Shown: positions 3,459 through 35,861 of the stretch, in pieces
How the letters are laid out: each line of letters begins with the position of its first letter
Position numbering within the stretch: the stretch's first letter is position 1
Origin: Rhodocollybia butyracea
Taxonomy: Eukaryota; Basidiomycota; Agaricomycetes; Agaricales; Omphalotaceae
Direction of reading: 5' to 3'
DNA length: 64,000 nt
Assembly (NCBI GenBank): GCA_015501585.1
Contig: JADNRY010000062.1
Coordinates: 1-64,000, forward strand
Program-made: the position numbers and the translations under genes
The notes under the pieces: generated by a model
What the model saw: only the letters and a program-made list of their open reading frames with translations
Told to the model about the DNA's origin: nothing
Databases searched by the model: none

Positions 3459-5906
3459 CTACCTTCTCTCGACTCCCTGGATGAAGATAAAGTGTTGAGT
3501 GAGATAAAGTGTTGAGTGAGATAAAGTGTTGAGTGAGATAAAGTAAAGTGTTGAGTGAAGATTCTCCGGAAAGAAAATAAACATACATCTTCCTCTTTCC
3601 ATGCAATCTGAGCTATCAGCTCTGTCAAACCAAACAACAAGATGACATCATATCTAGTCTGGTAGTATGGGAAAGCATTTCCAGGGTTTCGATGCGTTGT
3701 ATGGAGTATACGTGAAACATCAGCAGTCACTGTACAAGCCACTGTATACATTCCTGTCGAAGATTGTGAACATCTAACGCGCAAAATTCATGGTGCAAGG
3801 CCGAACATACCAGCATCCACATCAGTCCATTCGGGGTTCTCGTTGGCTCCCTTGTACCTTAAAATATCGAAGGATACGTTACGAACAGGAAAGGCAGTAT
3901 AACGAGAAAATGATCTTCGGAACTCCTGCTCTTCTGATATTTGGACATCCTGTCGACGAAAATGAACCACAAGCCATGCGTTTGAGAAATCCTGACCTTC
4001 TTCAATATAACCCTGTATAGATTGTGCACTTCGAGACGTCCTGACAAGTTGCAAAGAGTGTACCCTCGCCTTCGGTGCTCAGGATCGTTATTGTCATAAT
4101 CCACTACGCTTTGTATTCCGTATGGCCATCTAGAGACGCGCTTGGTAACAAAATGATCTAGATAAAACGAAACGGCTCCATCGGAGGCTGCTTTATTCCT
4201 ATGTGTGTCAATATAGTTAGATAGCAGAAATATTGGATTGAAAATGCTTACACATGAGTATCCGGGCGGTATACTTTTAACTTCAGGGGTCGCAGCTCAT
4301 CCTTGAGTTTATACAAAAGCCAAGGACTTGCGGCGAACCCGCCAACTAGAAACACAGACTGTGAATCCAAGATGGTCAGTAGATGGTAATCTGGTAGTGG
4401 AGGTTGAGATGCCCACCGTTACAGTTTTACGGGCGTAGGTGCACTGCTTCACAATCGCGGACAGGGCTGCTGTAACAGAGGGCTCGAAGAAACGCGCGAC
4501 ATCAGACCTATATCGATAGCAACAGCTATTCTTCGTAGAGTGATTATTTGAGGAAACCTAGGTAACATACCCCATAATCCTCATTTGACCAAGCCGAATG
4601 TCAAGAGCCGGGTCGTTATCTCTTGGCCGACCAAACTTGATAAAGTAAGCTTCCTGGCTGCTTCTGAACTGCAACTTAGTTGTGCGGTCGAAAACGTCCT
4701 TAATGGCAGATACATCGTCGTAAAACGGAGACCCCTTCAGCTTAGCTGCAAGGGAAAGTATAAAAATTATCAGAGGAAGCAGGACAGAATCGGACGTAAG
4801 TTATACCTTGAACATAGAGGTCAGCTTCTTCGGTGACAAATATTGACCCAGCGAAGCAACCTTTGAGTAAACATTGATCATTTGTCGGATAACTTTGGGG
4901 AAGTACACGTACACTCAGAGCGACTGATTTCCTCGAAGGTGGTGCCTTTTTCAGATCTAGAGGAGGAGTAAGCACTGAGGTCAATAGTTCCGCCCCCTGC
5001 GTCTAAAACAATTATTCCCTCATTTTCCTGTAACAGCAGCCATCAGTAAGTAGTCACTTTGGCATTGCATATCAAGAAGTACATACGCCAATTACAAGAC
5101 CATTGTTGACACAAAAGTGCAAACTAGCTTCACCTTCAGTGACGAAATATATACGGTCTTGGTCATTGATATTGTTGGAAACAAAGCCTGCCAGAACTGC
5201 CGCTTGTCGCATGTAACTTTGTTGTAAACCCTCCCAGCCATTCGGATGACTTAGAACAAAGATGATATGGTTTTGAACGGAAGCCCAGAAGTTGGGACCG
5301 TATGCAACGACTGTTTCCTTGATGAACGACTTGAAACATGACAAGAGGTATCGGAGGAAATCAGCAAGTACTTCTATCAGTGATTTGTTCGGTGGGAGTG
5401 ATGGAATGTGCTTAGAAGCGAGATTGGAAGCGTAAGAGTTGGGTCGCAGATGCATTTTGAACCTTGAATGTTGTTATCATCACGTCAAATCTTAAAGAGA
5501 ATGAATGAGCATACCATTCAACTTTCATCCATTGCTCATTCTCAGCTTGTTCAATTGTACCTGGTAGTTGCGTCTCTGCCCCAATAGCGCGTGCCGCCCC
5601 GTTAGCGTCATAGTATAAGACAGAAGGAATTTTTGCAAAGTCACTAGGATTGTGAGCGGGAAACCTATTGACAACTTAAACGATTTGCGGGTTGAGCTTA
5701 CTCGGTGGGGACTAACCTAGTGACACCCTTGATTTCTGGTACTACACCAGGATCGAGCACACTGTGAGAACAGACTTGAGATATTGTAATTTGAATTGAG
5801 TGTCGCAAGTACAGAACCTGAATGAGATACCACTAAAGGTTGTTCCGACATCAAAAGCAACGACCAATCCTCGTCGAGAGCCAGAGAAAGGTTTGCGCTT
5901 GGGCAT
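3459..5906 (-). CDS. HSPA12-like Hsp70 family ATPase, pair 1
   Basis: Predicted cytosolic actin-like ATPase of the Hsp70 superfamily, closest in layout to animal HSPA12: nucleotide-binding domain present, classical substrate-binding domain and EEVD tail absent. It is read from about a dozen short exons. Exon 1 (from ATG 5906; an ATG six bases upstream is also possible) carries phosphate-1, AFDVGTTFSGIS. Exon 4 starts FKMHLRPNS and ends TEGEASLHFCVNNG. Phosphate-2, LDAGGGTIDLSAY, is near 4980-5030, and the adenosine motif FLVGGFAASPW near 4327-4360. The C-terminal part contains SFYLDHFVTKRVSRWPYG and ILLFGLTELIAQIAW. The last exon encodes only GVERR and stops at 3459. The last intron contains a 17-bp minisatellite. 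It shares a 154-bp promoter with the coiled-coil gene at 6061. I see no disabling lesion. Confidence 0.8.
3486..3558. repeat. 17-bp minisatellite in the last intron of Hsp70-like gene 1
   Basis: Three exact tandem copies of GATAAAGTGTTGAGTGA (3486-3536) are followed by a fourth carrying a 5-bp insertion (3537-3558). The other Hsp70 copies have a single equivalent of this motif, so the expansion is specific to copy 1 and lengthens its final intron. Confidence 0.9.
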
Positions 5907-6060
5907 GTGCATGATTATAGAGGAGAGTAATCAGCCAACTACTTTGGAGGCTACAACTCCGGGTATGTATACACGTTGCAAGGCATGTGATGCTTTACAC
6001 CTCGAAGATATCTGATTGTTTTCGACTGATTTCATTCTGAATCTACCACCTCGACCTCCA
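5907..6060. promoter_or_regulatory. Bidirectional promoter of pair 1
   Basis: 154 bp separate the two divergent start codons, so both genes must take regulatory signals from this stretch or from the neighbouring coding sequence. The motif GCAAGGCATGTGATGC lies near 5979-5994 and is repeated, with changes, in the promoters of the other pairs. No clear TATA box is seen. Confidence 0.6.
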
Positions 6061-7513
6061 ATGCGCAACCCATCTCATTCAGAAGGAGACTCACGTCATT
6101 ACTCGAGTCATGGCAATGCACGGATAGATGACCGTGAACTCCGCGAAGGAAACCCACCTTGCGCCGAAGGCAGCTTTCATCCGAAATCTTCTTCCGTTCC
6201 AGCCTACCGTCCTGTTCGCCATTACACCACTGCGCCAGTCGAACAGAACGTCCACGCCATTAAACCTCATACTGGACATTATACAGATGAAGTGTCGCAT
6301 GGAAGCAGTCGTCGATCTTTATCAGCTCATGCCACGGCAGCCTCTGAGTCTCTGCCTAGGAGAGATCCAGAGAGAAATACCATCCGAGAGTCTTCGAGTC
6401 AGCAAATTCGATTGCTTGAAGCAGAGCTTGAAAAAGCACGACGTGAAAACCACACAAAGGACAACGAGATTAAACTCCTGAAACGACATCTTTCTAATGC
6501 ACAGACAGAGAATAACCATTATCGAAGGAAGGACACCCATAGTCAAGAGCTTTTGGATACACAAAGACAGGAACTGCAGGGAACCCGGGCATTCTTGAAT
6601 ATGTTTGACTCGTACTCGGGTGGAGAGATCATTGAAATGCTGAACACTCTTAATGCCGAAATCTTCCAGGCTGCTGCTGCCATTACAGACATGACCGAAA
6701 GAGCCCGTCGTGATGGTGGGAGCCACCGTCGTTCCGATGACACTTCAGTAGTTGAAGTCGGAAGGACATTGGGAGATGAGGTAGGAGAGCTCCTCCAGGG
6801 AATTGAGATTGGAGGGGAAAGCGTTGCAATCGTTCAAGCTGCACTACAAACAAGCTTGAATATTGCAGCAAATTGTATCTGTCGCTCGTGGTCAAAGGAA
6901 GGCTCGGTAGGTAAAGCGCTCAACGATGTATATGTTCAAATCCGAGCACAACAAGGTTAGTACAATTCAGAGACATGCTTTAGTACATACTTAACGTACA
7001 ATTCTAGATCAAGCTTTGGTGTCTGGAATATGGAAATCTCTGACAAGGGCACAGTCAAAACGCCACGTATACAAGGATCATGGGGTCCTTGCACAGGTAG
7101 TGGAGGGATTGCAAGTGATTTTAGTCGTAGCCAAATTGTGGCCATGCGGAGGCTCAGAGTCTGAAGGGCTGATTAGTTCCATGATCTTCAAAAAGGTCAC
7201 CATCATTCTGGGACTCTTAGCGAGACTGGATGAAGCTATGAACGAGCGCATAACATCCACGGACATGATGCTGTACGTTCCTGCCTTGGGTTTACCCTTT
7301 AACGCGCAGATCATGGAGGATGAAAGTGGTGGAGAATCATCGAGTGGGACTGTACTGCTCGTCGCAGAAATGGGACTGATGAGGGTAGACAAGGACTCAC
7401 TTGGGGGCGCCAAAAGGACTGTGCTGTTGAAACCCAAAGTTTTCCTTCGAGAGTCATTCGTGAAGCAAGAGACCACGAAAGCTGTAGTTTCAGAGGTCCA
7501 GAGACAAGAGTAG
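6061..7513 (+). CDS. Coiled-coil, GrpE-like partner of Hsp70, pair 1
   Basis: Unnamed protein family. Two exons, 6061-6955 and 7008-7513 (52-bp intron, phase 1), give 466 residues. I chose the ATG before RNPSHSEGD because it is the only upstream ATG preserved in all six copies; the reading frame is open further upstream but without an ATG. Residues 1-105 are rich in His, Ser and Arg and probably disordered. Residues about 110-185 form a heptad-rich coiled coil (IRLLEAELEKARREN onward). A helical domain follows, with the conserved GGEIIEMLNTLNAEIFQAAA. Exon 2 ends in a small predicted beta-rich region: P-A-L-G-L-P-F, then GTVLLVAEMGL, then VLLKPKVFL. This order resembles the GrpE beta domain, which inserts into DnaK. 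A direct role as nucleotide exchange factor of the neighbouring Hsp70 is inference. Confidence 0.75.
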
Positions 7514-8989: not shown

Positions 8990-11403
8990 CTACCTTTTCT
9001 CAGCTCCCTGGATAAAGGCGAAGTGTTCAGTGTAGATTCTCCAGAGACCAAATAAACATACATTTTCATCTTTCCATGCAATCTGAGCTTTGAGCTCTGT
9101 CAAACCAAACAACAAAATGACATCATACTCCGTTTTGTAGTACACCGAAGCAGTCCCAGGTTTTCGATGTATCGTATAGAATGCTCGTAAAACGTTGGCA
9201 GTCACTGTACAAGCCGTTGTGTACATTTCTGTTGAAGATTGTGAACGTTTGATGCACGCAATTCTTAGTGCAAGGCAAAACATACCAGCATCCACATCAA
9301 CCCATTGAGGGTTGTTGTTGGCTCCTTCATATCTTAGAATGTCCACAGAGATCGTATTAAGAGGGGTGATAGTATTATAAAAATATGGCGATCGAAACTC
9401 TTGCTCTTCCGATATTTGCACATCCTGTCGATGAAAATGAATGAGCACAACTTTGAATGCGTTTGGGGAATTCCAAACCTTCTGCAGTATAACAGAGTAC
9501 ACATCGCTCACCCTGAGACGCCCTGACACCCCGTGAACAGAGTATCCTCGCCTTCGATGCTCGGGATCGTTCGGGTCATAGGCTGAGAAACAATCTGTTC
9601 CGTATGACCATCTGGAGACACGCGTGGTCACGAAATGATCTATGTAAAACGAAACAGCTCCATCAGAAACTGCTTTGTTCCTATATATGCAACGTTATAG
9701 AACATGTCAAACTGTGGAAATATTGAATTGAATCGGACGCTTACACATGAGTATCTGGGCGATATACACTCAATCCCAGAGGTTGCAGCTTATCTTTGAG
9801 TTGATGCAAAAGCCAAGAACTTGCAGCGAACCCGCCAACTAGAAACACAGACTATGAATACAAAATAGTCAGTAGATGCTTACCTGGTAGTGGAGGTTGA
9901 GATGCTCACCGTTATAGTTTTTCGGGCGTTACTGCGCTGCTTTTTAATCGCGTCCAAGGCTGCTTTAACAGAGGGTTCGAAGAAACGTGCAACATCAGAC
10001 CTATGTATATCAACAGCGACCATCATTCGTAGTGGAGTGATTATTTAAGGAACCCTAGGTAACATACCCTTGAATCTTCATTTGACCAGACCGAATATCG
10101 AGAGCAAGGTCGGTATCGCTTCGCCGACCAAATCTGATAAAGGAAGGTTCATTGCTATTTCTGAACTGCAGCTTAGTTGTGCGGTCGAATATGTCCCTAA
10201 TAGCAGATACATCATCATTAAACGGAGTTCCCTTCAGTTTATCTGCAAGGGAAAGGGCATAAATTATCAGAGGAAGCAGAACAGAATTGGACGTTATACC
10301 TTGAACATAGAGAGCAGCCTCTCCAGTGACAAAGATTGACCCAGCAAAACAACCTTTGATTGAACATCGATGATCTGCTGGAAAACTTTGTAAAATACAC
10401 GTACACTCAGAACGACTAATTTCCTGGAAGGTGATAGCGTCTCCAGATCTGGACGAGGAGTAAGCACTGAGGTCGATAGTTCCCCCACCTGCATCTAAGA
10501 CGATTGTTCCCTCATTTTGCTGTAACAGCAGCCATCAGTAAGTAGCCAATTAGGCAATGCATACCAAGTACATACGCCAATTGTAAGACCATTGTTGACA
10601 CAAAAGTGTAAACTAGCTTCGCCTTCGGTAACGAAACGTATGCGGTCTTCGTCGTTAACAGTGTCGGAAACAAGACCTGCTAGAACTGCCGCTTGTCGCA
10701 TGTAACTTTGTTGCAAACCTTCCCAATCATTGGGATGACTTAGAACATAGATGATGCGGTTTTGAACGGAAGCCCACAAATTGGGACCATACAAAACCAC
10801 TGTTTCCTCGATAAACGACTTGACACATGACAAGAGGTATTGGAGGAAATCCGCAAGTATTTCTACCAACGATTTGTTCGGTGGGAGTGGCGGGATGTGA
10901 TTGAACGGGGGACTAGAAGTATCAGAGTTAGGTCGGAGATGCATTTTGAACCTATAACATTCTTATCATTACATCAAAATGTTAAAGTGGAAAGAAAGGA
11001 TATACCATTCGACTTTTATCCATTGTTCGTTCTCAGCTTGTTCAATTGTAGCTGGTAGCTGCGTCTCCGCTCCAATAGCGCGTACCACTCCTGTGGCATC
11101 ATAGTATAGGACAGAAGGAATTTTTGATGAGTCACTAGGATTTTGAGCAGGAAACCTATCGACTGCTTAAACAATTTGCAGATTGAACCTCTTCGGGGGG
11201 GACTGACCTAGTGACACCCCTGATCTCTGGTACTACACCAGGATCGAGCACACTATGAGAACAGACTTGAGATATCATTCTTTGAATTGAATGTCACGAA
11301 TATAGAACCTATATGAAATACCACTGAAGGTTGTACCGACATCGAAAGCAACGACCAATCCTCGTTGGGAGCCAGAGAAAGGTTTGCGCCTGGGCTGGGA
11401 CAT
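8990..11403 (-). CDS. HSPA12-like Hsp70 family ATPase, pair 2
   Basis: Second array copy, with the exon layout of copy 1. It starts MSQPRRKPFSGSQRG at 11403, two residues longer than most copies at the N-terminus. Phosphate-1 is FDVGTTFSGIS. Exon 4 (about 10587-10950) ends CVNNGLTIG before a normal GTATGT donor. Phosphate-2 lies near 10470-10515 and the adenosine motif near 9822-9855. The C-terminal exons encode SFYLDHFVTTRVSRWSYG, EEQEFRSPYF and the ILLFGLTELKAQIAW block. The last exon encodes GAEKR and a stop at 8990. All motifs and splice sites I checked are intact although its head-to-head partner is frameshifted, so if it is expressed it may use the coiled-coil protein of another pair. 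Confidence 0.8.
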
Positions 11404-11629
11404 GGTTGTAGAGGAAATAATTCCACAGCAGTTGGTACGACTCGGAAGGGTTTTGAATACTTTAGAGGCTATGGCTTGACGTTGACTTGACGTGTACACG
11501 TTGCAAGGAATAACTATGATGCTTCCCAGCGTAAAAGGTCAGCCTTGAAGACCTCACTTTTGCCCATTGTTTTTGATGGTACTAGGTTTCGTTTCCAGTC
11601 TTTCCAGTTTACTATCTACTCAATCTCCA
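11404..11629. promoter_or_regulatory. Bidirectional promoter of pair 2
   Basis: 226 bp lie between the start codons. The conserved promoter motif is degraded here: the ACGTTGCAAGG start is kept near 11498, but the rest is altered. Together with the frameshift in the plus-strand gene this hints at relaxed constraint on that side. Confidence 0.5.
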
Positions 11630-13071
11630 ATGCGCAATCCACCACATTCGGCGGGAGACTCACATCATCACTCGAGTCATGGCCATGCACGAAGAGACGA
11701 CTATGAATCCCACGAAGGCACATATTATGCTAGAGGCAGTGCTCATCCTGACTCTTCTTCAGTCCGCCGTCCCCATCGTACCATTGGCGTTGGACCAGTT
11801 GAGCAGAATGTCCATACATTAGAACACCGCACCGGACGTCATACAGACGAAAGGCCCCACAGAAGTAGTCGTCGATCTTCATCAGTTGATGCCACGGCAG
11901 CTTCTCAACCTAGGAGAGGCCTAGAGAGAAACACCTCTCGAAAGCTTTTGAGTCAGCAAACTCAATCGCTCGAAGTGGAGCTTCAGAGAGCACAGCGTGA
12001 AAACTGCACAAAGGATGACGAGATTGGACTTCTGAAGCGACATCTTTCTAATGTGCAGACAGAGAATGACCACTATCGAACGAAGGATGCCCATAACCAA
12101 CAGCTTTTGGATACACAGAGGCAGGAACTGCAAGGAGCCCGGGCATTCTTGGGCACAACTGACTCGTACTCGGGAGGAGATATCATCGAAATGCTCAGCA
12201 CCCTTAATTCCGAAATCTTTCAGGCTGCTGCTGTCATTACAGACGCAACTGAAAGAGCCCATCCTGGTGATGGAAGCTACCGTCATTCGGGTTATGCTCC
12301 AGCAGTTGAAGAGATCAGAAAGACATTGGGAGACGAGGTGGGGACGCTCCTCCAGGGAGATGGGATTGGAGGGGAAAGCATTGCGATCGTTCAAGCTGCA
12401 CTGCAAACAAGCTTGAATATTAATTTGAAGGATATCTGTCTATGCTGGTCAACGGACGGCTTGGTAGGTAAAGCGCTCAAAGATGTATATATTCAAATCC
12501 GAGCACAACAAGGTCAGTACAATTCGAAGACAACTATGAGTACATACTCAACATGCAATTCTAGATCAAGTTTTGGTGTCCGGGACATGGAGATCTCTGA
12601 CAAGGGCACAGTCAAAACGCCATGTATACCACGACCAAGGGCTTTTTGGACGGGTAGTGGAGCGAATAAAAGTGATTTTTAGTTGTAGCAAAACGGTGGC
12701 CATGCGGGAGCTCAGAATCCGAAAGGCAGATTTTATCCATGGTCTTCGAAAAGGTCTCGACCATTTTGGAACTTTTGGCGAGACTGGATGAAGCTATGAA
12801 CGAGCGTGTTACATCCACAGACATGATGCTGTACGTTCCTGATTTGGGTACACCCTTTAACGCGCAGATCATGGAGGATGCAGATGGTGGGGAATTATCG
12901 AGCGGGACTGTACTGTTTGTCTCAGAAATGGGACTGATGAGGGTAGATAAGGATCCAGCTGGGCGAGACAAAAGCACCGTGCTGTTGAAACCCAGAGTAT
13001 TTCTTCAAGAGTCATTTTTCAAGCAAGAAACCACGAAAGCTGTAGGTTCAAAGGTCCAGAGACGAGAGTAG
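11630..13071 (+). pseudogene. Coiled-coil, GrpE-like partner, pair 2, frameshifted
   Basis: Same architecture as copy 1: exon 1 11630-12512, intron 12513-12564, exon 2 from 12565. Exon 1 is open and encodes the His/Ser-rich N-terminus, the coiled coil (LEVELQRAQREN onward) and the helical domain. In exon 2 a run of five T at about 12676-12680 replaces the four-base stretch of the other copies. The added base moves translation into a frame that stops at 12791, within the helices and before the beta-rich C-terminal region. The remaining frame (12739-13071) is still free of stops, so the lesion is recent or is a sequencing error in a homopolymer. If real, the protein loses its most conserved part. 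Confidence 0.7.
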
Positions 13072-13836
13072 AGGCTTATTGATATTCCTGGTAATTGCGT
13101 ATAAATAATTGTAACATTCCAGAACGATCCGCCATTTCCGTGTGTTGTACGGGTATACGTAGTAGTTTTTTAAAATTTCTATATTGGTTTGAACGCTTAG
13201 AAGCCAGACATCCTAGAAGGTGACTTCACTGTACCAGCTTCACTTTTACTCATACCTTGCATCCGATCCAAACAACGATGATTTATCAGGGCTTCACACT
13301 AGCCAGTTGAACAGCGTAAGGTAGACCTAGAAGTAGCAGTGAAGATGCGAACGAGTATTCTTCTCGCAAAAGGCTAGCTGCTAGTGGACTTTTTCTCAAG
13401 CACGTGCCACTCCGGTGTCACCGGATCGGTCAGCGCGACGTACAGTAACACAACATCATCATGCACCCACGACGCCCTCCCCAGACGCCGCCCCCAATAG
13501 CTAATTGCTCTTTTTGAACATGGTCGGTGGTTGGTGGCCACTCAATATGTTGAGGGCATGCATCTGACCGATTCTGATGCAGTGTGTGTATGTAGCACGG
13601 GCGCCGATTGTTTCTAATTGGGACGCGTCGGTTTTTCTTTCCTTTATGGCGGCCCAAGTTCCTGGCTATCGTCAAAAGCCCTACAATGCTCCCAGGAACG
13701 TAACAGGATGTTTGAACCCTATCCAAGTTTGGCTCCAGTTTGGCTTTGTAACTACAACTATGATCGAAATCACCGCCGTGGACACATACTCCCACTGGCT
13801 TCGCCTTTGCTGACAAAATGCATGCGGCGGAAACAA
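13072..13836. other. Intergenic, with the breakpoint of the truncated Hsp70 of pair 3
   Basis: The first 300 bases match the 3' flank of the coiled-coil genes of pairs 1 and 5. From about 13400 the sequence becomes unlike any other copy (GC-richer near 13430-13500) and no gene is visible. It then joins abruptly into the middle of an Hsp70 exon near 13837. The segment therefore marks a deletion or insertion that removed the 3' half of Hsp70 copy 3. Confidence 0.5.
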
Positions 13837-14360
13837 GGCCTGCTAGAACTGCCGCCTGTCGCGTGTAGTTTTGTTGCAAACCGTCCCAACCATTCAGATG
13901 AAAGATGATAGAATTTCGAACGGAAGCCCAGAAGCTAACGCCATCGGGAAGCATTGTTTCCTCGATGAATGACTTGACACACGACAAGAGGTATTGGAGG
14001 AAATCTGTAAGTACTTCTATTTACTCGGCGGGAGCGGTGGAATGTGCCTAGAGGCGAGACTGGAAGCATAAGACTTGGGTCACAGATGTATTTTGAACCT
14101 GTTATCCTCAAGTCTTATTTTTGAACTGTAGAAAGACCTTTCAAATTTTATCCGTTGCTCGTTCTCAACTTGTTCGATAATAATAATTGGTAGCTGTGGC
14201 GCTGGGCAATTGTGCTGTGGCGTCATAGTACAAGACTTGCGCCTAACAAGAACAGTGATCCTTGATTTCCAGTGGTACTACACCAGGATCGAGCACACTG
14301 CAGGAGCAGACTTAAGATATCGTAATTTGAATTGAATACCCCAAGTACAGAACTTGAATG
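13837..14360 (-). pseudogene. Remnant of Hsp70-like gene, pair 3
   Basis: Only the middle of the gene remains: the exon equivalent to FKMHLRP...LAGLVS (about 13837-14095), followed upstream by decayed pieces of exons 3 and 2 as far as about 14360. Exon 1 with phosphate-1 is gone, as is everything after the mid-domain, including phosphate-2 and the adenosine motif. There are also internal changes: the start of the FKMHLRP exon reads ATA instead of ATG at its Met codon, and bases are lost around the equivalent of LVEVLADFL. It cannot make an ATPase. The coiled-coil gene beside it is intact. Confidence 0.85.
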
Positions 14361-14543
14361 AAAGTCAAGATGGGCTCAAAGATGTCAAAGTAGTTCTAAG
14401 CAGTAAGGCATACGTGTTTATGAAGTAAATTTCACTTTGCCAAGCAAGAACTCAGGGCTGCTTATAACCGAGTACTTCACTTTCGCCCATTGTTTTCCAT
14501 GTCCACAACTCTCATTTCTAGTCTACTACCTACTCGATATTGG

Positions 14544-16020
14544 ATGCACGGTCCACCTCACTCTGAAAAAGACTCACGTCATTACTCGAGCCATGGCCAT
14601 ATGCGTAGAGACGATCGTGAACTCTGCGAAGGAAGCACACATCGCGCTGAAGGCAGTTTTCATCCTGACTCTTCTTTCCATGTTCCAGTCCGCCATCCGC
14701 ACAAAGATGCTCACCTTCGAACCATTGGACCAGTCGAGCAGAACGTCCACACAATAGGCTCTTGCATTGGACATCATACAGATGAAATGTGGCGTAGAAG
14801 CAGTCATGGATCTGATGCCACACCAGCCTCCGAGTCTCTGTCTAGGAGAGGCCCAGAGAGAAATGCCACCCAAGAGCCTTCGACTCAGCAAATACGATTG
14901 CTTGAAGCAGAGCTTCTGAACGCACAACGCGAAAACCGTACAAAGGACGATGAGATTGAACGGTTAAAGCGACGTCTTTCTAGTGCGCATAAAGATATCG
15001 GCCACTATCGAAGGAAGGACGCCCATAATCAAGAACTTTTAGACACACAAAGACAGGAACTGCAGGGAACGCGGGCATTCCTGAACATGTTTGACTCGTA
15101 CTCAGGTGGAGACATCATTGAAATGCTGAACACTCTTAATGCCGAAATCTTCCAGGCTGCTGCTGCCATTACAGACATGACCGAAAGAGCCCGTCGTGAT
15201 GGTGGGAGCCACCGTCGTTCGGATGACGCTTCAGTAGTTGAAGTCAGAAGGACATTGGGAGATGAGGTAGGGGTGCTCCTCCAGAGAATTGAGATTGGAG
15301 GGGAAAGTGTTGCGATCGTTCAAGCTGCACTACAAACAAGCTTGAATATTGCAGTAAAGCGTATCTGTCGCTCGTGGTCAAAGGAAGGCTCGGTAGGTAA
15401 AGCGCTCAACGATGTATATGTTCAAATCCGAGCACAACAAGGTCAGTACAATTCAGAGACATGCTATAGTACATACTCAACGTACAATTCTAGATCAAGC
15501 TTTGGTGTCTGGAATATGGAAATCTCTGACAAGGGCACAGTCAAAACGCCACGTATACAAGGATCATGGGGTCCTTGCACAGGTAGTGGAGGGATTGCAA
15601 GTGATTTTAGTCGTAGCCAAATTGTGGCCATGCGGAGGCTCAGAGTCTGAAGGGCGGATTAATTCCATGATTTTGGAAAAGGTCACCACCATTCTGGGAC
15701 TTTTAGCGAGACTGGATGAGGCTATGAATGAGCATGTTACATCCACAGACATGATGCTGTACGTTCCTGCCTTAGGTATACCCTTTAACGCGCAGATCAT
15801 GGAGGATGAAGATGGCGGAGAGTCATCGAGTGGGGGTGGAGAGTCATCGAGTGGGACTGTACTGCTCGTCGCAGAAATGGGACTGATGAGGGTAGACAAG
15901 GATTCAGCTGGGCCAGACAAAAGGACTGTGCTGTTGAAACCCAAAGTTTTGCTTCAAGAATCATTCGTGAAGCCAGAGGCCACGAAAGCTGTACGTGCAG
16001 AAGTTCAGAGACGAAAGTAA
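14544..16020 (+). CDS. Coiled-coil, GrpE-like partner, pair 3 (orphaned)
   Basis: Intact two-exon gene (14544-15441, intron 15442-15493, 15494-16020) encoding 474 residues, although its Hsp70 neighbour is a remnant. It starts MHGPPHSEKD at the conserved ATG. Order: His/Ser-rich N-terminus, coiled coil (IRLLEAELLNAQREN onward), helical domain, C-terminal beta-rich region ending VLLKPKVLLQES. An in-frame tandem duplication of GGESSSG occurs near 15826-15860 in the loop before the beta strands. About 190 bp around the start of exon 2 are identical to copy 1, whereas the extreme 3' end and flank match copy 6, so the gene is a mosaic, probably made by gene conversion. The normal divergent promoter was cut by the Hsp70 deletion. 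Confidence 0.75.
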
Positions 16021-16931: not shown

Positions 16932-19356
16932 TTATTGAAGTAAGTTTTGTGATTCCACTGCATTAAATATTAGAGTGTACCTTTTCTCAGCTCCCTAAGC
17001 GAAGTTTTTAGCGAAAATTCTCTAGAGAGCGAGATAAACCTACATTTCCCTCTTTCCATGCAATCTGAGCTTTCAGCTCAGTCAAACCAAACAACAAGAT
17101 GACATCGAATTCCGTCTTATAGTATATCAAATCGTTCCAAGGTTTTCGACGAAGCGTCTTATGGGATATTCGCGAAACGTCGGCAGCCACTGTACAAGCT
17201 GTTGAATACATTTCTGTCAAAGCTCGTGAACATCTGATACCTGATGCGCAAAAATTTTGAGCGCAAGGCCAAACATAACATACCAGCATCCTCATCTGTC
17301 CAAGCTGGGTACTCGATGATTCCTTCATACTTCAAAATATTCACCGATATGTTGTTTAGACGAGTCGCAGATTCCTGATAAAACGACGCTCGAAACTCCT
17401 GGGCTTTCAATATTTGCACATCCTGCCGAAGGAGATTATAATAAGCACGATTTGTGCATTTGAAAAAGAATCTGACCTTTTGCAGTATAACCGAATATTG
17501 ATTCAACACTTGCAGCTCTCCAGTCAACACGTTAGTAACGTATCCTCGTATTTGGTGCTCGGGATTATTCGCTTCATAAACGGCATAAGTACCCAAACCG
17601 TAAGTCGATCTAGAGACGCGAGTGTCAACGAGACAATCTAGATGAAACGAAACAGCCCCATCGGAGACTGCCTTATTACTGGACGGTGTTATAAAACAAT
17701 AGAAAAATTGAACTAAGTAAGACACTTGCACATGATCATCCGGGCGTTGTAAAACTCAATCCCAAAAGTTGCAGCTCTTCCTTGAGCTGTGACCAAAGCC
17801 ACTCACTCGCAGCGAAGCCACCCACTAGAAACACGGACTATGAATACAAGATACTCAGTGAACGCTTATATGGTAGTGGACGTTGAGGTTCTCACTGTTA
17901 TGTTTGGTGCATTGCTGCACTGTCTCGTAATCGCCTCCAGGGCCGCCTTAACAGAGCGCTCGAAGAAACGCGCAACATCGGACCTGCAATGTTTTGCTGT
18001 AGAGGTATTATACGAGGAAACCTAGATAACATACCCCGGAATCTTCACTTGACCAGCCCGAATATTGAGAGTAGGGTCGTTATCATTTCGCCCACCAAAC
18101 TTGATAAAGGAAGGATCATTGCTATCCTTGAACAGCAACTTGGTTGTGCGGTCGAAATACTCAACCATGGTATCTACATCGCGCTCAAACTGAGTTCCCT
18201 TCAGTTTATCTGCAGGAGAAAATGTAAAACAAAAGCAGAGGAGATTTGGATAGAATACTTACCTTCAAGATAGCGGCGAGCTGCTTGCGTGACAAAGACT
18301 GACCCAGCGAAGCAGCCTTTGATTGGACATTGATTATCTGTTGGATAACTTTGGAGAAGTATACGTACACTCCGAACGGCTAATTTCATGGAAGGTGATA
18401 GTTTCGCCAGATCCGGACGAGGAGTAAGCACTGAGGTCGATGGTGCCCCTGCCTGCGTCTAAAATGATTATTCCCTCATTTTCCTGTGATAGCAGCCATC
18501 AGTAGATAGCCATTTGGGCATTGCATACCAAGAAGTACATACACCAATTTCAAGACCATTGTTGACACAAAAATGCAAACTAGCTTTGCCTTCGGTGACA
18601 AAATGTATGCGGTCTTGATCATCAGCATTGGTCACAAGGCCGGCTTCAACGGCCGCTTGTCGCATGGAGCTGTGTAGCGAGCCCTCCCAACCATTCGGAT
18701 GGCTCAGAACAAAGATGATACGATTTTCAACAGAGACCCAGAGTTTCGCACCATCAGGAAGCACTGTTTCCTCGATGAATGACTTGACACACTTCAAGAG
18801 GTATCGGAGATAATCCGCCAGTACTGCTGACAACGATAGACTCGGTGGGAACAGTGGGACGTGCTTAGAGTCGAGAAGGGAAGCAGGAGACTTGGGTCGC
18901 AGATGCATTTTGAACCTATGATGTTGTTATCCGTCTGATTTTTGAAGTGCAGAACGACCAAACATACCTTTCAACTTTTATCCACCCCTTGTCCTCAGCT
19001 TCTTCAATCTTAACTGGTGACTGCGTCTCCGCCCCAATAGCGCGCGCCACTCCTTTGTCATCATAGTATAAGACCGAAGGAATTTTTGAGGATCCACCAG
19101 GAGTCTGATCGGGGAACCTATTGACTGCCTAAACAATTTGCGGGAAATTACTTGGTGAGGACTGACCTAGTGACACTCTGAATTCTTGGTACTACACCAG
19201 GATCGAGCACACTGTGAGAGCAGACCTGAGATATCGTACTTTGAATCGAATATTACAAGTACAGAACCTGAATGATATGCCACTAAAGGTCGTCCCGAGA
19301 TCGAAAGCAACGACCAATCCTCGTTGAGAGCCAGAGAAAGGTTTGCGTGTGGACAT
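16932..19356 (-). CDS. HSPA12-like Hsp70 family ATPase, pair 4
   Basis: Starts MSTRKPFSGSQRG at 19356. Phosphate-1 is altered to FDLGTTFSGIS. The exon 18540-18908 encodes FKMHLRPKSPASLL through TEGKASLHFCVNNGLEIG; note GKAS where other copies have GEAS. Phosphate-2 lies near 18435-18480 and the adenosine motif VFLVGGFAASEW near 17808-17840. The C-terminal exons include DTRVSRSTYGLG and FDVILLFGLTELKAQIAW. The final exon begins GAEKR, but the stop codon used by copies 1, 2 and 5 reads TAC. The frame runs on for about 15 more residues to a TAA at 16932, a change shared with copy 6. It is the most diverged of the intact array Hsp70 copies. Confidence 0.75.
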
Positions 19357-19534
19357 GGCTGATAAGAAGAAATCCCCAAAGTTATCAACCTTAAAGGCTG
19401 TAAATAGTATACACGCTGCAAGGCATGTGATGCTTTAAAAAGTAAGAAGTCAGGCCGCAGTGCCTCTCTTTCGCCCATCGAGTTCGAATCTTTCGATGGT
19501 ACTAGGTTTCAGTTTACTACCTCCTCGATATTCA
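19357..19534. promoter_or_regulatory. Bidirectional promoter of pair 4
   Basis: 178 bp separate the conserved start codons. The motif GCAAGGCATGTGATGC is present exactly near 19418-19433, as in pair 1. An in-frame upstream ATG at 19496 could give the coiled-coil protein 13 extra residues; the conserved ATG at 19535 is preferred because it exists in all copies. Confidence 0.6.
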
Positions 19535-21152
19535 ATGCACAGCTCAATTTACTCGGAGGAAGACTCACGTCATCACTCCGGTCATGGCCATGCACAGAGA
19601 GATGATCGTGAAAGAAACACACGTTGGGATGAAGGCAGTTTTCATCCCGACTCTTCATCCGATGTTCCGGTCAGCAGTCCGCACGCAGATGATTGCTCCG
19701 ACACCGTTAGGCCAGTCGAGCAGAACTTTCACGCAATAGGACCTCGCGCCGGACATCCGAGTCATACAGATGAAAGGTCTTATGAAGACGGTCAATCTCC
19801 AATGGCTTATGAAATGACAGTTTCCCAGTCTGGGAGAAGTGCAGAGGTGTCGCTCCCTGGGCCGGTCAAGCAGGACCTTCACGCAGTAGAACTATCTCCC
19901 ATCGCACATCATACAAATGAAAGGTCGCATGGAAACCGTCCCCAGTTTTCATCGGCTGATGCCGCAGAACTTGCCCCCCAGTCTGCGAGACCAGCGAGAA
20001 ACACCACTGCAGAGCCTCCGAGTCAGCAAATGCGATCGCTAGAAGCGGAGCTTCTGACAGCACGGCGTGAAAACCGCACAAAGAACGATGAGAATGAACG
20101 TCTAAAGCGACGCCTTTCTAGTGCGCAGAAAGAGATCGCCTACTATCGAAAGAAGGACGCCCATAGTCAAGAGCTTTTGGAGACACAAAGGCGGGAACTG
20201 CAGGGAGCTCTAGCATTCTTGAACACGATTGACGCGTACTCGGGCGGAGATATCATTGATATGCTCAACGCCCTTAATTCCGAAATCTTTCAAGGTGCTG
20301 CCATCATCACAGACTCGCTCGACGGAGCCCGTCCTGGCGGTGGGAGCTACCGTCGCTCAGATGAAGCTTCGGAAGTTGAAGAGATCAGAAGGGCATTGGG
20401 GGATGAGGTGCGGGTACTCCTGCAGGAAGATGGGACCGAAGGGGAAAACATCGCGATCAACCAAGCTGCACTACAAACAAGCTTGAATATTGCATTAGAG
20501 CAGATCTGTCGCCGGTGGTCAAACAACGACTCGGCAGATCAGGCGCTTAATGATGTATATGTTCAGATCCGGGCACAACAAGGTCAGTGAAACTCGAAGG
20601 CATGCTACTTATGAGTGCATACTCAACATACATACAATTCTAGGTCAAGTTTTAGTGCCCGGAACATGGAGATCTCTGACCAGAGCGCAAACAAAACCCT
20701 TGGTGTACCAGAATCCAGGACTCCTCGAACATATAGTGGGGCAGATGAAAGCGATCTTAGTTGTAGCAGAATGGTGGCCGTACAGGGATTCAGAGTCTGA
20801 AAGGCAAATTGCATCCATGGCTCGCAAAAAGGTCTCCGCCATTCTGGAACTTTTGGCGAAACTGGATGAGGCTATGAACGAGCGCGTTACATCTACAGAC
20901 ATGATGTTGTACGTTCCCGCCTTGGGTGTACCCTTTGACGCACAGACGATGGAGGATGCAGATGGTGGAGAATCGTCGAGTGGAACTGTACTGCTCGTCC
21001 CAGAAATGGGACTAAAGAGGGTAGCCAAGAATTCAGCTGGACGAGACGAAACGACTGTGCTGTTGAAACCCAAAGTGTATCTTCGAGAGTCACTTGTCAA
21101 GCAAAAGACCACGAGAGCTGTACGCGGCACAGAGGTACAGATAAGAAAGTAG
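19535..21152 (+). CDS. Coiled-coil, GrpE-like partner, pair 4, with expanded N-terminus
   Basis: Two exons (19535-20582, intron 20583-20643, 20644-21152) encode 518 residues, the longest of the family. The extra length is an internal duplication in the disordered N-terminal part. The motif seen once in other copies (PVEQNVHAI, then HHTDERSH) appears twice here, as PVEQNFHAIG with HTDERSY and again as PVKQDLHAVE with HHTNERSH. The coiled coil (MRSLEAELLTARREN onward), helical domain (GGDIIDMLNALNSEIFQGAA) and C-terminal beta-rich region (VPALGVPFDAQTMED, GTVLLVPEMGL, TVLLKPKVYL) are intact. The intron is 61 bp against about 52 in copies 1-3. Confidence 0.75.
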
Positions 21153-25465: not shown

Positions 25466-27873
25466 CTACCTTTGCTCGACTCCCTGGATGAAGGTGGAGT
25501 GTTCAGTGAAGATTCTCCAGGGAGAAAATAAACATACATCTTTCCCTTTCCATGCAATCTGAGCTTTCAGTTCTGTCAAACCAAACAACAAGATGATAGC
25601 ATAGCTAGTCTTGTAGTATGTCGAACCATTTCCAGGCTTTCGATGCGTTGTATAGGATACTCGTGAAACGTCGGCAGTCACTGTACAAGCCGTTGTATAC
25701 ATTTCTGTCAAGGATTGTGAACGTCTTATGCACGCAATTCTTAAGGTACATGATAAGGCCGAACATACCAGTATCTACATCAATCCATTCGGGGTTCTTG
25801 TTGGCTCCTTCATATCTTAGAATGTCCGCAGAGATCTTTCTAAGAGGAGCGATAGTTTCACCAAAATAAAGTGATCGGAACTCCTGCTCTTCCTCTATTT
25901 GCACATCCTGTCGACAAAAATGAACCACAAGTTATGCGTTTGGGAAATGCCTGACCTTCTCCAATATAACCGAGTATGAATTGTCCACCTTGAGACATCC
26001 CGATGCCTTGGAAACAATGTATCCTCGTCTTTGGTGCTCAGGATTGTCCTTGTCATACCCCACAAAGCAACTTACTCCGTATGGCCATCTAGAGACACGC
26101 TTGGTAACGAAATGATCTAGATAAAATGAAACGGCTCCATCGGAAACTGCTTTATTCCTGAATAACGTTATGAAACTTGTCAAACAGTACTGGAAATATT
26201 GAATTGAAGACGCTTACACATGGGTATCTGGGCGGTATACCTCCAATCCAAGAAGTTGCAACCCATCCTTAAGCTTAGACAACAGCCAAGGACTTGCAGC
26301 AAATCCACCAACTAGAAACACAGACTACAGATACAAAACGATCATTAGAAGGTTATCTGGTAGTGGAGGTTTAGTAGGTTCTCACAGTTATAGTCGCTTG
26401 TGCGTCGCTGCGCTGTTTCAGAATCGCTTTCAAGGCTGCTCTAACAGAGGGTTCAAAGAACCGCGCAACATCAGACCTGCAATAACTATTTAGTGAAAAG
26501 TGATTACTTAAGGAAACCGTAAACGTACTTACCCTGAAATCTTCATTTGACCAGACCGAATATCGAGAGCAAGGTCGGTATCATTTCGCCCCCCAAACTT
26601 GATAAAGCAAGCTTCTTTGCTATTTCTGAACTGCAACTTGCTTGTGCAGTCAAAACTGTCAGTTATGGCGGCTACATCGCCATAAAACCGAGTTCCTTTC
26701 AGTTTATCTGCAAGGGAAAGCGTAAACTTTATGGAGGGAAGCAGAAAACAGAACAGGACTCGTGTGATACCTTGGACATAGTCTTCAGCTAGTCCAGTGA
26801 CAAAGATTGACCCAGCAAAGTGACCTTTGATCATTGAGCATCAATTATCTATTGGGTAACTTCAGAGAAGTACTATTATACGTACACTGAGGACGAGTAA
26901 TTTCCTGGAAAGTGATAACTTTCCCAGATTTGGACGAGGAGTAGGCACTGAGGTCGATAGTTCCCCCACCTGCGTCTAAAATGATTACTCCCTTGTTTTC
27001 CTGTGATAGCAGCCATCAGTAAGTAGCATTACATACCAAGAAGTACATACACCAATTTTAAGGCCATTGTTGACACAAAAGTGCAAACTAGCTTCACCTT
27101 CGGTGACAAAATGTATGCGATCTTGGTCATTGATGTCGGAAACAAGGCCTGCTAGAACTGCCGCTTGTCGCATGTAGCTTTGTTGTAAACCCTCCCAACC
27201 GTTTGGATGGCTTAGAACAAAAATGATGCGATTTTGAACGGAAGCCCAGAAGCTGACACCATCAGGAAGCACCGTTTCCTCGATGAATGACTTGACGCAT
27301 GACAAGAGGTATCGGAGGAAATCAGCAAATACTTCTATGACCGATTTTTTCGGTGGGAGCGGTGGGATCTTTTTAAAGGCAGGATCGGAAACATAAGACT
27401 TGGGTCGCAGATGCATTTTGAACCTATATGTTCAAAATCTCAAGTCTCATTTTTGAACAGTGTAGAAACACCGAGCATACCATTCAACTTTTATCCATTG
27501 CTCAGTCTCGGCTTGATCAATTGTAGCTGGTAGCTGTGTCTCAGCCCCAATAGCGCGCACCACTCCTCTGGCATCATAGTAGATGATGGAAGGGATTTTC
27601 GATGAATCACTAGGATTTTGACCGGGAAACCTATTGACTGCTTAGACAATCTGCGGGAACCACTCCGAGTCGGTGAAGATTGACCTAGTGACACCTTTGA
27701 TTTCTGGTACTAGACCAGGATTGAGCACACTGCGAGAGCAGATTTGAGATATGTATCTTGAATTAAATGTAACGAGTACAGAACCTGAATGAAATACCAC
27801 TGAACGTTGTCCCAATATCTAAAGCAACGACTAATTCTCGTTGAGAGCCAGAGAAAGGTTTGCGCCTGGACAT
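25466..27873 (-). CDS. HSPA12-like Hsp70 family ATPase, pair 5
   Basis: Starts MSRRKPFSGSQRE at 27873. Phosphate-1 is LDIGTTFSGIS. The long exon (about 27053-27416) begins FKMHLRPKSYVSDPAF and ends CVNNGLKIG before a normal GTATGT donor. Phosphate-2 lies near 26955-27000 (ILDAGGGTIDLSAY) and the adenosine motif near 26297-26328 (VFLVGGFAAS). The C-terminal exons encode SFYLDHFVTKRVSRWPYG, EEEQEFRSLYF and ILLFGLTELKAQIAW. The last exon encodes GVEQR and a stop at 25466. I see no inactivating change. Its 3' exon and flank group it with copies 1 and 2 rather than with its neighbour copy 6. Confidence 0.8.
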
Positions 27874-28774: not shown

Positions 28775-30186
28775 ATGCACAACCCACCTCACTCGGAAAG
28801 AGACTCAGATCATAACTCTAGTCATAGCCATACACGGAGAGACGACCATGAACTCCACAAAGGAGTCACACCTTATGCTGAAGGCAGTTGTCATCCTGAC
28901 TCTTCTTCCTATGCTCCAGCCCGTCGTCCGTACGCAGATGTTCCCTATCATCCCATTGGGCCAGACGAGCAGAACGTCCACGCAATAGAAAATCGCACCG
29001 GACATCATACAGATGAAAGGTCGCATCGATCATCAGCTGATGACACAGCAGCCTCTCGGCCCCTGAGGAACTTAGAGAGAAACGCCGCCGAAAAGCAAAT
29101 TCGATTGCTTGAAGTGCAGCTTCAAAAAGCACAACGTGAAAACCACACAAAGGACGATAAAATTGATCATCTGAACCGACATCTTTCTGGGGCGCAGAGA
29201 GATATCGGCCAGTATCGAATGAAGGACGCCCACAGTCAAGAGCTTTTGGATGCACAAAGGCAGGAACTGCAGGGAGTCCGTGCATTTTTGAACATGACTG
29301 ACTCGTACTCGGGTGGAGATATCATTAAAATACTTAACACCCTTAATTCCGAAATCTTTCAGGCTGCTGCTGTCATTACAGACACGGTCGAAGGAGCCCA
29401 TCCTGGTGGTGGGAGAGACCGTCGTTCGGATGATGCTTCAGCAGTTGAAGAGGTCCGAAGGGCATTGGGAGATGGGGTGAAGGATCTCCTTCAGCCTGAG
29501 GGAAATGGGATTCAAGGGGAAAACATCACGATCATTCAAGCTGCACTACAAACAAGCTTGAATATTGCATTGGAGGATATTTGTCGCCAGTGGTCAAAGG
29601 ACGGCTTAGTAGATAAAACACTCAATAATGTATATGCTCAAATCCGAGCAAAGCAAGGTCAGCACAACTCGATGACATGCTATTCGGAGGCGTACTAAAG
29701 AGACATACAATTCCAGAGCAAGTTTTGGTGTCTGGAATATGGAGATCTCTAACCAGAGCAAAGACAAAATGCTTGGTTTACCAGGAGCCTAGTCTCAAAG
29801 ATTTAGCGAAAGATCTAGCGGAGCGGATGAAAGCGATTTTAGTTGTAGCAAAACGGTGGCCATACGGGAATTCAGAGTCTGAAAAGCAGATTAAATCTAT
29901 GGTTTCCGAAAAGGTCTCTGTCATTCTGAAACTTCTAGGGGGACTGGATGAAGCTATGAACGAGCGCGTTACATCCACAGATATGATACTGTACATTCCT
30001 GCCTTGGGTATACCCTTTGACGCACGGATCATGGAGGATGCAGATGGTGGAGAAACATCGAGCGGGACTGTACTGCTCGTCACAGAAATGGGACTGAAGA
30101 GGGTAGACAAGGATCCAGCTGGGCCAGACAAAGTGACTCTGCTGTTAAAACCCAAAGTGTTTCTTCGGGAGTCTTTTTTCGGGTAA
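28775..30186 (+). CDS. Coiled-coil, GrpE-like partner, pair 5
   Basis: Two exons (28775-29657, intron 29658-29716, 29717-30186) encode 450 residues. It begins MHNPPHSERD. The coiled coil is slightly shortened by loss of residues before KQIRLLEVQLQKAQREN. Helical domain GGDIIKILNTLNSEIFQAAA. Exon 2 has a small insertion (LAKDLAKDLAERM, a short internal repeat) and a complete beta-rich region: IPALGIPFDARIMED, GTVLLVTEMGL, LLLKPKVFL. The reading frame ends at a TAA right after ESFFG, about 15 residues earlier than in the other copies, so the charged C-terminal tail is lost. Confidence 0.75.
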
Positions 30187-31672: not shown

Positions 31673-34120
31673 TTACTTGCGCTGGACCCCTAGATTCTTT
31701 AAGTAAGTTTTGTGATTCCCCAGCGTTGTATTAGAGTTGTACCTTTTCTCAACTCCCTAAGTGAAGTGTTCAGCGAAGATTCTCTAGAGAGCGATAAACC
31801 TACATTTCCCTCTTTCCATGCAATCTGAGCTTTCAGCTCTGTCAAACCAAACAACAAGATAACATCGAACTCCGTTTTGTAGTATATCGAACCATTCCCA
31901 GGTTTTCGATGCGTCGTATGGGAAATTCGCGAAACGTCGGCAGTCACTATACATGCTGTTGAGTACATTTCTATCGAATCCCGTCAACATCTAATATCTG
32001 ATGCGCGAAAAGGCCGAACATGACATACCAGCATCCACATCCGTCCAAGCTGGGTTCTTGTTGATTCCTTCATACTTCAAAATATCCACAGATATGCTAT
32101 TTAGACAAGTCGTAGTTTCACGGCAAAATGACGAACGAAACTCCTGGGCGTTTGATATTTCCACATCCTGTCGAAGAAAAGAGTCGTAGTAAGTAAGCAC
32201 AGTTTGTTGAGAAAGAATCTCTGACCTTTTGCAATATAACCGAATATTTATTGAGCACTTGCAACTTTCCAGTCACCGTGCTAGTAATGTATCCTCGTTC
32301 GTGGTGCTCAGCATTGTTCGCTTCATAAATGATATAACAGCGCAATCCGTAGGACCATCTAGAGACGCGACTGGTAACGAAATGATCTAGATAAAACGAA
32401 ACAGCTCCATCGGATACTGCCTTATTACTGTAGGACGGTATGGAACATGGTAAATGATGGAAAATTTGAACCTGACGAGACACTCACACATGAGTATCCG
32501 GGCGATATATACTCAACCCCAGAGGTTGCAATCCATCTTTGAGTTTGGACGAAAGCCAGGTACTTGCAGCAAAACCACCGACTAGAAACACAGACTATGA
32601 ACACAAAACGATCAATAGACCGTCATTTGGTAGTGGAGTTGAAGCACTCACCGTTATAGTCCTTCGTGCGCCACTGCGCTGTTGCGCGATCGCCTTCAGG
32701 GCTGCTTTAACAGAGGGTTCAAAGAAACGTGCAACGTCGGACCTGTAACAGCTAGTCGCTGTAGAGTGATTATATGAGGAAACGTAAGTAACATACCCCG
32801 GAATCTTCATTTGACCAGACCGAATGTCGAGAGCAAGGTCGGTATCACTTCGCCCCCCAAACTTAATAAAGCAAGCTTCCTTGCTATTTCTGAACTGCAA
32901 CTTGCTTGTACGGTCAAAACTGTCTGTTATTGCAGATACATCGCCATAAAACCGAGTTCCTCTCAGTTTATCTGCAAGGGAAAGTGTAAATTTTGAAAAG
33001 CAGATCAGATTCGAATGTAATACCTTGAACATAAAGTTGAGCTTCTTCGGTGACAAAGATCGACCCAGCGAAGCAGCCTTTGATTGGACATTAATTAGCG
33101 AATAACTTTGGGTAAGTACACTTACATTCAGGACGACTAATTTCCTGGAAGGCTATAGCTTCGCCGGATCCGTACGAGGAGTAAGCACTGATATCGATAG
33201 TTCCCCCACCTGCATCTAAAATGATTATTCCCTCGTTTTCCTGTAATAGCGGCCATTAGTAAGTAACGATCTGGGTATTGCATACCAAGAGGTACATATG
33301 CCAATTGTAAGACCATTGTTAACACAGAAGTGTAGACTAGCTTCGCCTTCGGAGACGAAATGTACGCGGTCTTGGTCGCTGATATTGTTGGAAACAAGGC
33401 CTGCTAGAACTGCCGCTTGTCGCATGTAATTTTGTTGCAAACCCTCCCAACCGTTCGGATGACTTAGAACAAAGATGATACGATTTTGAACAGAAGCCCA
33501 GAAGCTGACACCATCGGGAAGCACTGTTTCCTCGATGAATGACTTGACGCACGACAAGAGGTATCGGAGGAAATCCGCAAGTACTTCTACCAACGATTTA
33601 CTCGGTGGAAGCGGTGGGATGTGCCTAGAGGCGAGGCTGGAAGCATAAGACTTGGGTCGAAGATGCATTTTGAACCTAAATATTTGTTATCCTCAAGTCT
33701 AATTTTCGAAGTAAAGAAAGAGAGAACATACCATTCAACTTTTATCCATTGCTCGTTCTCAGCTTGTTCGATAATAATTGGTAGCTGCGTCTCCGCCCCA
33801 ATTGCGCGCGCCACTCCTATGGCGTCATAGTATAGGACAGAAGGAATTTTTGATGAACCACCGGGAATTTGAGCGGGAAACCTATCGACTGTCTAAACAG
33901 CTTGCGAGAACCTACTCGGTGAGGACTGACCTATTGACACTCTTGATTTCTGGTACCACACCAGGATCGAGCACACTGTGGGAGCAGACTTGAGATATCG
34001 TACTTTGAATTGAATACCACGAGTACAGAACCTGAATGAAATACCACTAAAGGTTGTTCCGACATCGAAAGCAACAACTAGTCCTCGGTGAGAGCCAGAG
34101 AAAGGTTTGCGCTTGGACAT
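31673..34120 (-). CDS. HSPA12-like Hsp70 family ATPase, pair 6, possible splice defect
   Basis: Starts MSKRKPFSGSHRG at 34120, with FDVGTTFSGIS in exon 1. Later exons read: VLDPGVVPEIKSVN; FPAQIPGGSSKIPSVLYYD; FKMHLRPKSYASSL through CVNNGLTIG; phosphate-2 ILDAGGGTIDISAY (33188-33235); KLRGTRFYGDVSAI; adenosine motif VFLVGGFAAS (32563-32595); SFYLDHFVTSRVSRWSYG; ILLFGLTELKAQIAW. The donor after GLTIG, which is GT in copies 1, 2, 4 and 5, reads AT (near 33298), and I find no in-frame replacement. Correct splicing is therefore doubtful. As in copy 4 the usual stop codon is TAC, and the frame continues about 20 residues to a TAA at 31673. It may be functional through a non-canonical donor, or be in early decay. 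Confidence 0.65.
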
Positions 34121-34413: not shown

Positions 34414-35861
34414 ATGCGCAACCCACCTCACTCGGAGGAAGACGCACACCGTTACTCGAGTCATGGCCAAACACGGAGAGACGACCGCGAACTCCACGAA
34501 GGAGTCGCACCTTATGCTAAAGGCGGTTTTCATCCTGACTCTTCCGATGTACCATCCCGCCGCCCGCCCGCAGATGTTCCACATTGCACCATTGGGCCAG
34601 TCGAGCAGAGCGTCCACGCAATAGAACATCGCACCAGACGTCATAGAGATGAAAAGTTGCATCGAAGCGCTCGTCGATCTTCATCGGCCGATGCCACAGC
34701 AGTCTCTCAGCCTAGGAGAGGCCTAGAGAGAAACGCCTCCCAAAAGCCTTCGAGCCAGCAAACTCAATTCCTTGAAGTGGAGCTCCAGACAGCACGTCGT
34801 GAAAACAGCACAAAGGACGACGAGATTAAACTTCTAAAGCGAGATCTTTATAATGCACAGACAGAGGATAACCATTATCGAAGGAAGGACGCCCATAGTC
34901 AAGAGCTTTTGGATACACAAAGGCGAGAACTGCAGGGAGCCCGGACATTTTTGAACACGACTGACTTGTACTCGGGAGGAGATATTATCGAAATGCTCAA
35001 CACCCTTAATTCCGAAATCTTCCAGGCTGTTGCTATCATTACAGACGCGACCGAAGGGGCCCGTCCTGGTGGTGGGAGGTACCGTTGTTCAGATGATGCT
35101 TCAGCGATCGAAATGGTATTAGGAGATGAGATGAGGATGCTCCTTCAGGGAAACGGCACCGAAGGGGAAAACATTGCGATCATCCAAGCCGCGCTACAAA
35201 CAAGCTTGAATATCGCATCGGAGCATATCTGTCGCTTATGGTCGATAAACGGCTTGTTGGATACGTCGCTCAATGCTGTATATGCTCAGATTCGAGCCCA
35301 ACAAGGTCAGTGCAAGTTGAAAACATGTTGTGGGTTTGTACTCAACATACGATTCCAGATCAAGTCTTGGTGTCTGGAACATGGAGATCCCTGACCAGAG
35401 CGCAGACGAAACGCTTGGCATACCAGGACCAAGGGGTCCTTGGACATATAGTGGAGCGGATGAAAGTGATCTTAGTTGTAGCAAGACGGTGGCCATGCGG
35501 GGATTCAGAATCCAGCAGGCAGATTACATCCATGATTTTCGAAAAAGTCTCGACCATTCTGACACTTTTGGCGAGACTGGATGAAGCTATGAACGAGCGT
35601 GTTACATCTACGGACATGATGCTGTGCGTTCCTGGATTGGGTACGTCCTTTGACGCACAGAACATGGAGGATGCGGATGGTGGAGAATCTTCGAGCGGGA
35701 CTGTGCTGTTCGTTACAGAAATGGGACTGATGAGGGTAGACAAGGATCCAGCTGGGCGAGACAAGGTGGCTGTGCTATTGAAACCCAAAGTGTTTCTTCA
35801 AGAGTCATTTATCAAGCAAGAGACCCCGAAAGTACGTGCAGAAGTTCAGAGACGAAAGTAA
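34414..35861 (+). CDS. Coiled-coil, GrpE-like partner, pair 6
   Basis: Two exons (34414-35305, intron 35306-35358, 35359-35861) encode 464 residues. It starts MRNPPHSEEDAHRYSSHG. The N-terminal 105 residues are His/Ser/Arg-rich. A coiled coil spans about 110-185 (TQFLEVELQTARREN onward). The helical domain has GGDIIEMLNTLNSEIFQAVA and IAIIQAALQTSLNIA. Exon 2 encodes DQVLVSGTWRSLTRAQ, an amphipathic stretch up to LLARLDEAMNERV, and the beta-rich C-terminus (VPGLGTSFDAQNMED, GTVLFVTEMGL, VLLKPKVFL). No lesion was seen, although the Hsp70 beside it may be mis-spliced. Its 3' end and flank are nearly identical to those of copy 3. Confidence 0.75.

Follow-up and report, generated by a model that had tools for sequence, protein, structure and literature searches.

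Possible GrpE-fold partner proteins encoded head to head with divergent HSPA12-like Hsp70 genes in Rhodocollybia butyracea

Introduction

In a 64,000-nucleotide stretch of DNA from the fungus Rhodocollybia butyracea (assembly GCA_015501585.1, contig JADNRY010000062.1, positions 1 to 64,000; hereafter, the window), genes for HSPA12-like Hsp70s stand head to head with genes for a coiled-coil protein, called the partner here. What does the partner do for the ATPase beside it? A first-pass annotation, made by eye, proposed that the partners are GrpE-like exchange factors for the neighboring Hsp70s, and our analysis partly supports this interpretation. We tentatively read the partners as a mushroom family of GrpE-fold co-chaperones for divergent HSPA12-like Hsp70 ATPases, for which we infer binding and nucleotide exchange; we consider this reading nearly as likely to be right as wrong. 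It is proposed because of the head-to-head pairing at eight loci, the conserved domain order, and the position of GrpE as the nearest fold in one structure comparison, the VIA second look.

A published account (PMC12987570) places the known GrpE family (PF01025) in bacteria, mitochondria, and chloroplasts. R. butyracea carries an ordinary GrpE gene elsewhere in its genome (C805, E 3.3e-38). In the open-access full texts searched, we found neither a GrpE-type factor described for HSPA12-like Hsp70s nor a fungal one outside mitochondria.

Results and Discussion

Structure of the partner protein

Partner gene copy 1 (6061..7513, forward strand) consists of two exons, 6061-6955 and 7008-7513, separated by a 52-base intron (6956-7007), and encodes 466 amino acids. 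Its product is 100% identical over the entire query to a deposited hypothetical protein of R. butyracea, BDP27DRAFT_1448477 (P0001). Here, as in the searches for the partner family and for the ATPase relatives, the 7996 candidate proteins sharing the most words were scored. The protein begins with a disordered region, followed by a coiled coil (residues 104-180), a helical region (187-377), and a GrpE-like beta domain (384-445). AlphaFold2 predicted one helix at 104-180, with a predicted local distance difference test score (pLDDT) of ~92-98 across 111-160 and lower values beyond, then eight helices at 187-377, strands at 384-445, and a final helix at 446-465. The deposited models of copies 2 and 3 (P0002 and P0004) start with an additional short hydrophobic N-terminal segment, as do the relatives P0007-P0010. 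Translation of the array genes may begin further upstream than in the copy 1 model.

According to the first-pass annotation, a long coiled coil, a helical domain, and a small C-terminal region are common to all array copies. This was borne out, and the C-terminal region is a predicted beta domain. Two corrections are needed: exon 2 of copy 2 carries a one-base frameshift and the product ends at 369 residues; copy 5 is ~15 residues short at its end. The C-terminal motif pattern quoted in that annotation occurs as written in copy 1 (PALGLPFNAQIMED, GTVLLVAEMGL, and TVLLKPKVFL) and is largely kept in 77 aligned C-termini of the family, a partly redundant set that falls to 44 below 75% identity. 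In these, the aromatic position is F or Y in all 77, the next residue is D in 60 and N in nine, and the M of the motif is kept in 76. Of the later positions, 73 have the G before T, all 77 the G of GL, and 75 the P of KPKV.

Residues 347-466 of copy 1 (7151..7510, forward strand), which span the last helix and the beta domain, were also folded alone. When this model was compared with 998 chains in the VIA second look, GrpE entries from at least three organisms took rows 1-4. When the PDB was searched by sequence with the fungus's own GrpE, its 177635 sequences yielded only six distinct GrpE ones. The likeness of the partner C-terminal fold to GrpE, as modeled, is moderately supported. It could still be coincidental if the domain is just a small beta fold bearing common motifs, the Hsp70-like neighbor being explained by a shared promoter and tandem duplication. 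We regard this as improbable: four GrpE entries stand at the top of the comparison despite being so few in the PDB, the by-eye alignment, the profile alignment, and the strand order agree in register, and the gene pair is kept at a locus, C972, whose partner is only ~23% identical. What speaks for coincidence is the failure of the GrpE sequence tests described below, together with a Foldseek search that gave no significant match.

Sequence tests for GrpE membership

A profile of the partner C-termini was compared with a 40-sequence GrpE alignment. The register chosen by eye in the first-pass annotation was recovered unguided, although the match was weak (probability 4.4%, score 20.75). Partner LGLPFNAQI..MED..SGTVLLVAEMGLMRV was aligned with GrpE GDKFDPNRHEAL..PGTVLDCQKSGYMIKDR. 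None of 150 column shuffles reached this score with the whole GrpE alignment, and one of 150 did with the beta part alone. In a null test against 136 single open reading frames (ORFs) of Escherichia coli, no ORF scored better than the GrpE alignment (E 0.016 for the alignment vs 0.019; with a second anchor, 0.0078 vs 0.021), although an alignment is unlike a single sequence and grpE itself was missing from the 136 ORFs, displaced by a longer overlapping ORF.

Several results weigh against a GrpE identity. With a full-length or core family profile, GrpE aligned best to the coiled coil and not to the beta domain. HMMER found PF01025 in neither copy 1 nor copy 7 (E <= 1), and none of 35 partner C-termini matched it. 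A hidden Markov model of the family, run on a mixed set, did not pick out GrpE proteins (best GrpE rank 15 of 347 scored), and E. coli GrpE scored alone gave no match (E 0.5). Foldseek found no significant match of any kind for the C-terminal domain model. On the sequence searches, membership in GrpE (PF01025) was rejected, and common descent of the partner C-terminus and GrpE is unproven. Of the GrpE identity first proposed, the fold likeness has moderate support and the family membership by sequence fails; an unrelated C-terminal fold was not seen in the VIA second look, while Foldseek matched nothing significantly.

Foldseek also returned nothing at E <= 0.001 against viral models. Chains of the COMMD complex did appear among its matches: for the domain they took rows 1, 2, and 8, with a best E of 0.15 at probability 0.63, and for the full model they took row 3, with an E of 0.2 at probability 0.14. 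These rows would suit a COMMD-type fold of the helical and beta domains, with the protein in a ring-like assembly, which we consider very improbable.

Other matches were set aside. Among 78 full-length members, weak Pfam matches were to SlyX (30), ADIP (27), PUMA_CC (25), ATG16 (23), and GrpE (12; best E 0.033), which are probably coiled-coil noise. Matches of the C-terminal profile to proteasome alpha-5 (E 0.06) and UPF0335, and a separate match to PrsA (E 0.25), were attributed to chance.

The Hsp70-like neighbors

The first-pass annotation took the neighboring genes to encode Hsp70s. A profile of 30 neighbor relatives matched DnaK (E 1e-5), and 48 of the 50 PDB sequences found at E <= 0.1 were Hsp70s, the other two being FtsA. 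By these profile matches, the neighbors are divergent Hsp70-superfamily ATPases with an Hsp70 nucleotide-binding domain. The superfamily assignment therefore holds, but the neighbors are evidently too diverged for PF00012. This model did not match two stitched neighbors and matched nine of 30 neighbor relatives weakly (best E 0.006); across the genome, it detected ordinary Hsp70s and none of the Hsp70-like genes of the window. The label HSPA12-like is taken from the names of database relatives. Among the matches listed (names and species were drawn from the best 120 of 2041 for the ATPase and the best 120 of 208 for the partner), the neighbor relatives go by Heat shock 70 kDa protein 12A/12B or actin-like ATPase. 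The neighbors resemble these Hsp70s in the names of their relatives and in the DnaK match, and differ in the lack of a PF00012 match. A heat-stress proteome of Hypsizygus marmoreus includes a protein named Heat shock protein 12A, possibly one of these relatives, with low values of 0.024, 0.109, and 0.218 (PMC7813762).

Pairing in this genome and in other fungi

Genome-wide, the neighbor of copy 1 had strong matches on C961 (the window), C1166, C281, and C972, and a weak one on C334 (E 3e-4). Contigs C281 and C1166 are read as the other haplotype of the array rather than as additional loci because they are 95-99% identical to window positions 8172-20877 and most of 25165-34926. All eight strong Hsp70-like loci, one of them a remnant, are head to head with a partner gene. 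Conversely, eight of the nine partner loci found have an adjoining ATPase. The paired loci form three diverged lineages: the array, copy 7, and C972. The C972 partner has 23% identity to copy 1 in the trimmed region and starts ~320 bases from the start of its ATPase.

The exception is a relative on C472, for which no Hsp70 was found within positions 90000-99500 (9.5 kb examined). This gene (L014 3459-4901) has a single exon, and an N-terminal hydrophobic stretch, seen by eye, could be a membrane anchor. The genome search for partner loci used one protein as query and missed copy 7; thus, more diverged partner relatives may exist.

The partner family comprises 208 proteins at E <= 0.01 with a 13-sequence profile. 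Named relatives among the matches listed are called hypothetical or uncharacterized, and their species are ones we take to be mushroom-forming fungi (Agaricales, Boletales, Atheliales, and Hymenochaetales). The consensus of 78 aligned members is of the C972 type rather than the array type. Indirect evidence of pairing elsewhere is that the contigs bearing a partner and an ATPase are of equal length in Gymnopus androsaceus, in Lentinula boryana, and for one metagenome contig. The pairing is not universal, since ATPase relatives far outnumber partner relatives (2041 vs 208, at different thresholds) and, in Armillaria nabsnona, the four listed ATPases share a contig that is not that of the partner.

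Comparison with known exchange factors and proposed mechanism

The partner family shares with GrpE/Mge1/GrpEL1 the order of a long helix, helices, and a C-terminal beta domain, as predicted for the partner; the predicted strand order; the F-D...G-T-V...G-(Y/L)...(L-R/K-P) motifs, with nine residues between the two glycines in both; and an Hsp70-type partner, indicated for the partner family by genome adjacency. The predicted helix at 104-180 of copy 1 resembles the long N-terminal stalk helix of GrpE. The differences are that copy 1 lacks a PF01025 sequence match, that the beta domain is preceded in GrpE by a small bundle of short helices and in the partner model by eight helices (187-377), that the last two strands lie ~10 residues farther apart in the partner family, and that M (76 of 77) replaces the H of FDPxxHEA. 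In human GrpEL1, the FDP step is reported to contact Hsp70, with P172 touching subdomain IB and D171 the lid (PMC11685456).

Hsp110/Grp170, HspBP1/Sil1, and BAG have folds that differ from GrpE. None of them was noticed in the partner structure-match lists, which does not exclude them. They resemble the proposed partners in acting on Hsp70s outside bacteria, and are named as exchange factors in a published account (PMC12987570).

In the proposed mechanism, the coiled coil would pair two partner copies into a dimer, and the GrpE-like beta domain would dock on the nucleotide-binding domain of the neighboring Hsp70. The beta wing might then open the nucleotide pocket so that ADP leaves, by analogy with the action of GrpE on DnaK. 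Each gene pair would encode an ATPase together with an exchange factor of its own, and the two genes would have been multiplied together. The broader proposal is that a family of exchange factors with the GrpE fold arose in mushrooms and works outside bacteria and organelles. The family would be dedicated to HSPA12-like Hsp70s, and each factor would be encoded with its Hsp70 in a divergently transcribed module that is duplicated as a unit; we regard this as possible, although we lean toward doubting it. If true, HSPA12-like ATPases would gain a dedicated exchange factor, the GrpE fold would extend beyond bacteria and organelles, and many natural ATPase-partner pairs would be available for co-evolution tests.

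Selection on the array copies bears on these proposals. The ratio of nonsynonymous to synonymous substitution rates (dN/dS) is below 1 throughout for the ten pairs among five array copies, with a median of 0.39 in the beta domain vs 0.79 in the disordered N-terminus. The conservation of the array is thus more than chance. Tighter selection on the beta domain and pairing at eight loci would suit any dedicated partner, including an adaptor or scaffold of the HSPA12-like ATPase whose coiled coil and disordered N-terminus bring in substrates or fix its location, with a beta domain that binds without nucleotide exchange. The large eight-helix domain, which has no counterpart in GrpE, also fits such a role. 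We judge this alternative rather unlikely; it would make the GrpE likeness in the VIA second look incidental to function.

Organization of the array

In pair 1, the Hsp70 gene (3569..5912, reverse strand) has its start codon 148 bases from that of copy 1. Pair 2 joins an Hsp70 gene at 9047..11403 (reverse) to the frameshifted copy 2 at 11630..13068 (forward), with 226 bases between start codons. Pair 3 has an open partner gene, copy 3 (14544..16020, forward), beside an Hsp70 remnant with internal stops (13829..14350, reverse); the halves of a pair can therefore part. Hsp70 and partner genes follow in pair 4 (17035..19356, reverse, and copy 4, 19535..21152, forward; 178 bases between start codons), pair 5 (25523..27873, reverse, and the early-ending copy 5, 28775..30186, forward; 901 bases), and pair 6 (31795..34120, reverse, and copy 6, 34414..35861, forward; 293 bases). 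Pair 7 has the opposite orientation, with the diverged copy 7 (58032..59238, reverse; 24% identity to copy 1 in the trimmed region) and an Hsp70 gene at 59478..61828 (forward) whose start codons are 239 bases apart. The spacing is thus 148 to 901 bases in the six window pairs other than pair 3.

Two other features of the window were observed. A GDA1/CD39-family nucleoside phosphatase (PF01150, E 4.7e-65) follows the array at 36494-38341. A reverse-strand frame at 56110-56709 has an SGGPDS-type motif, seen by eye, that suggests a tRNA-lysidine synthase-like protein.
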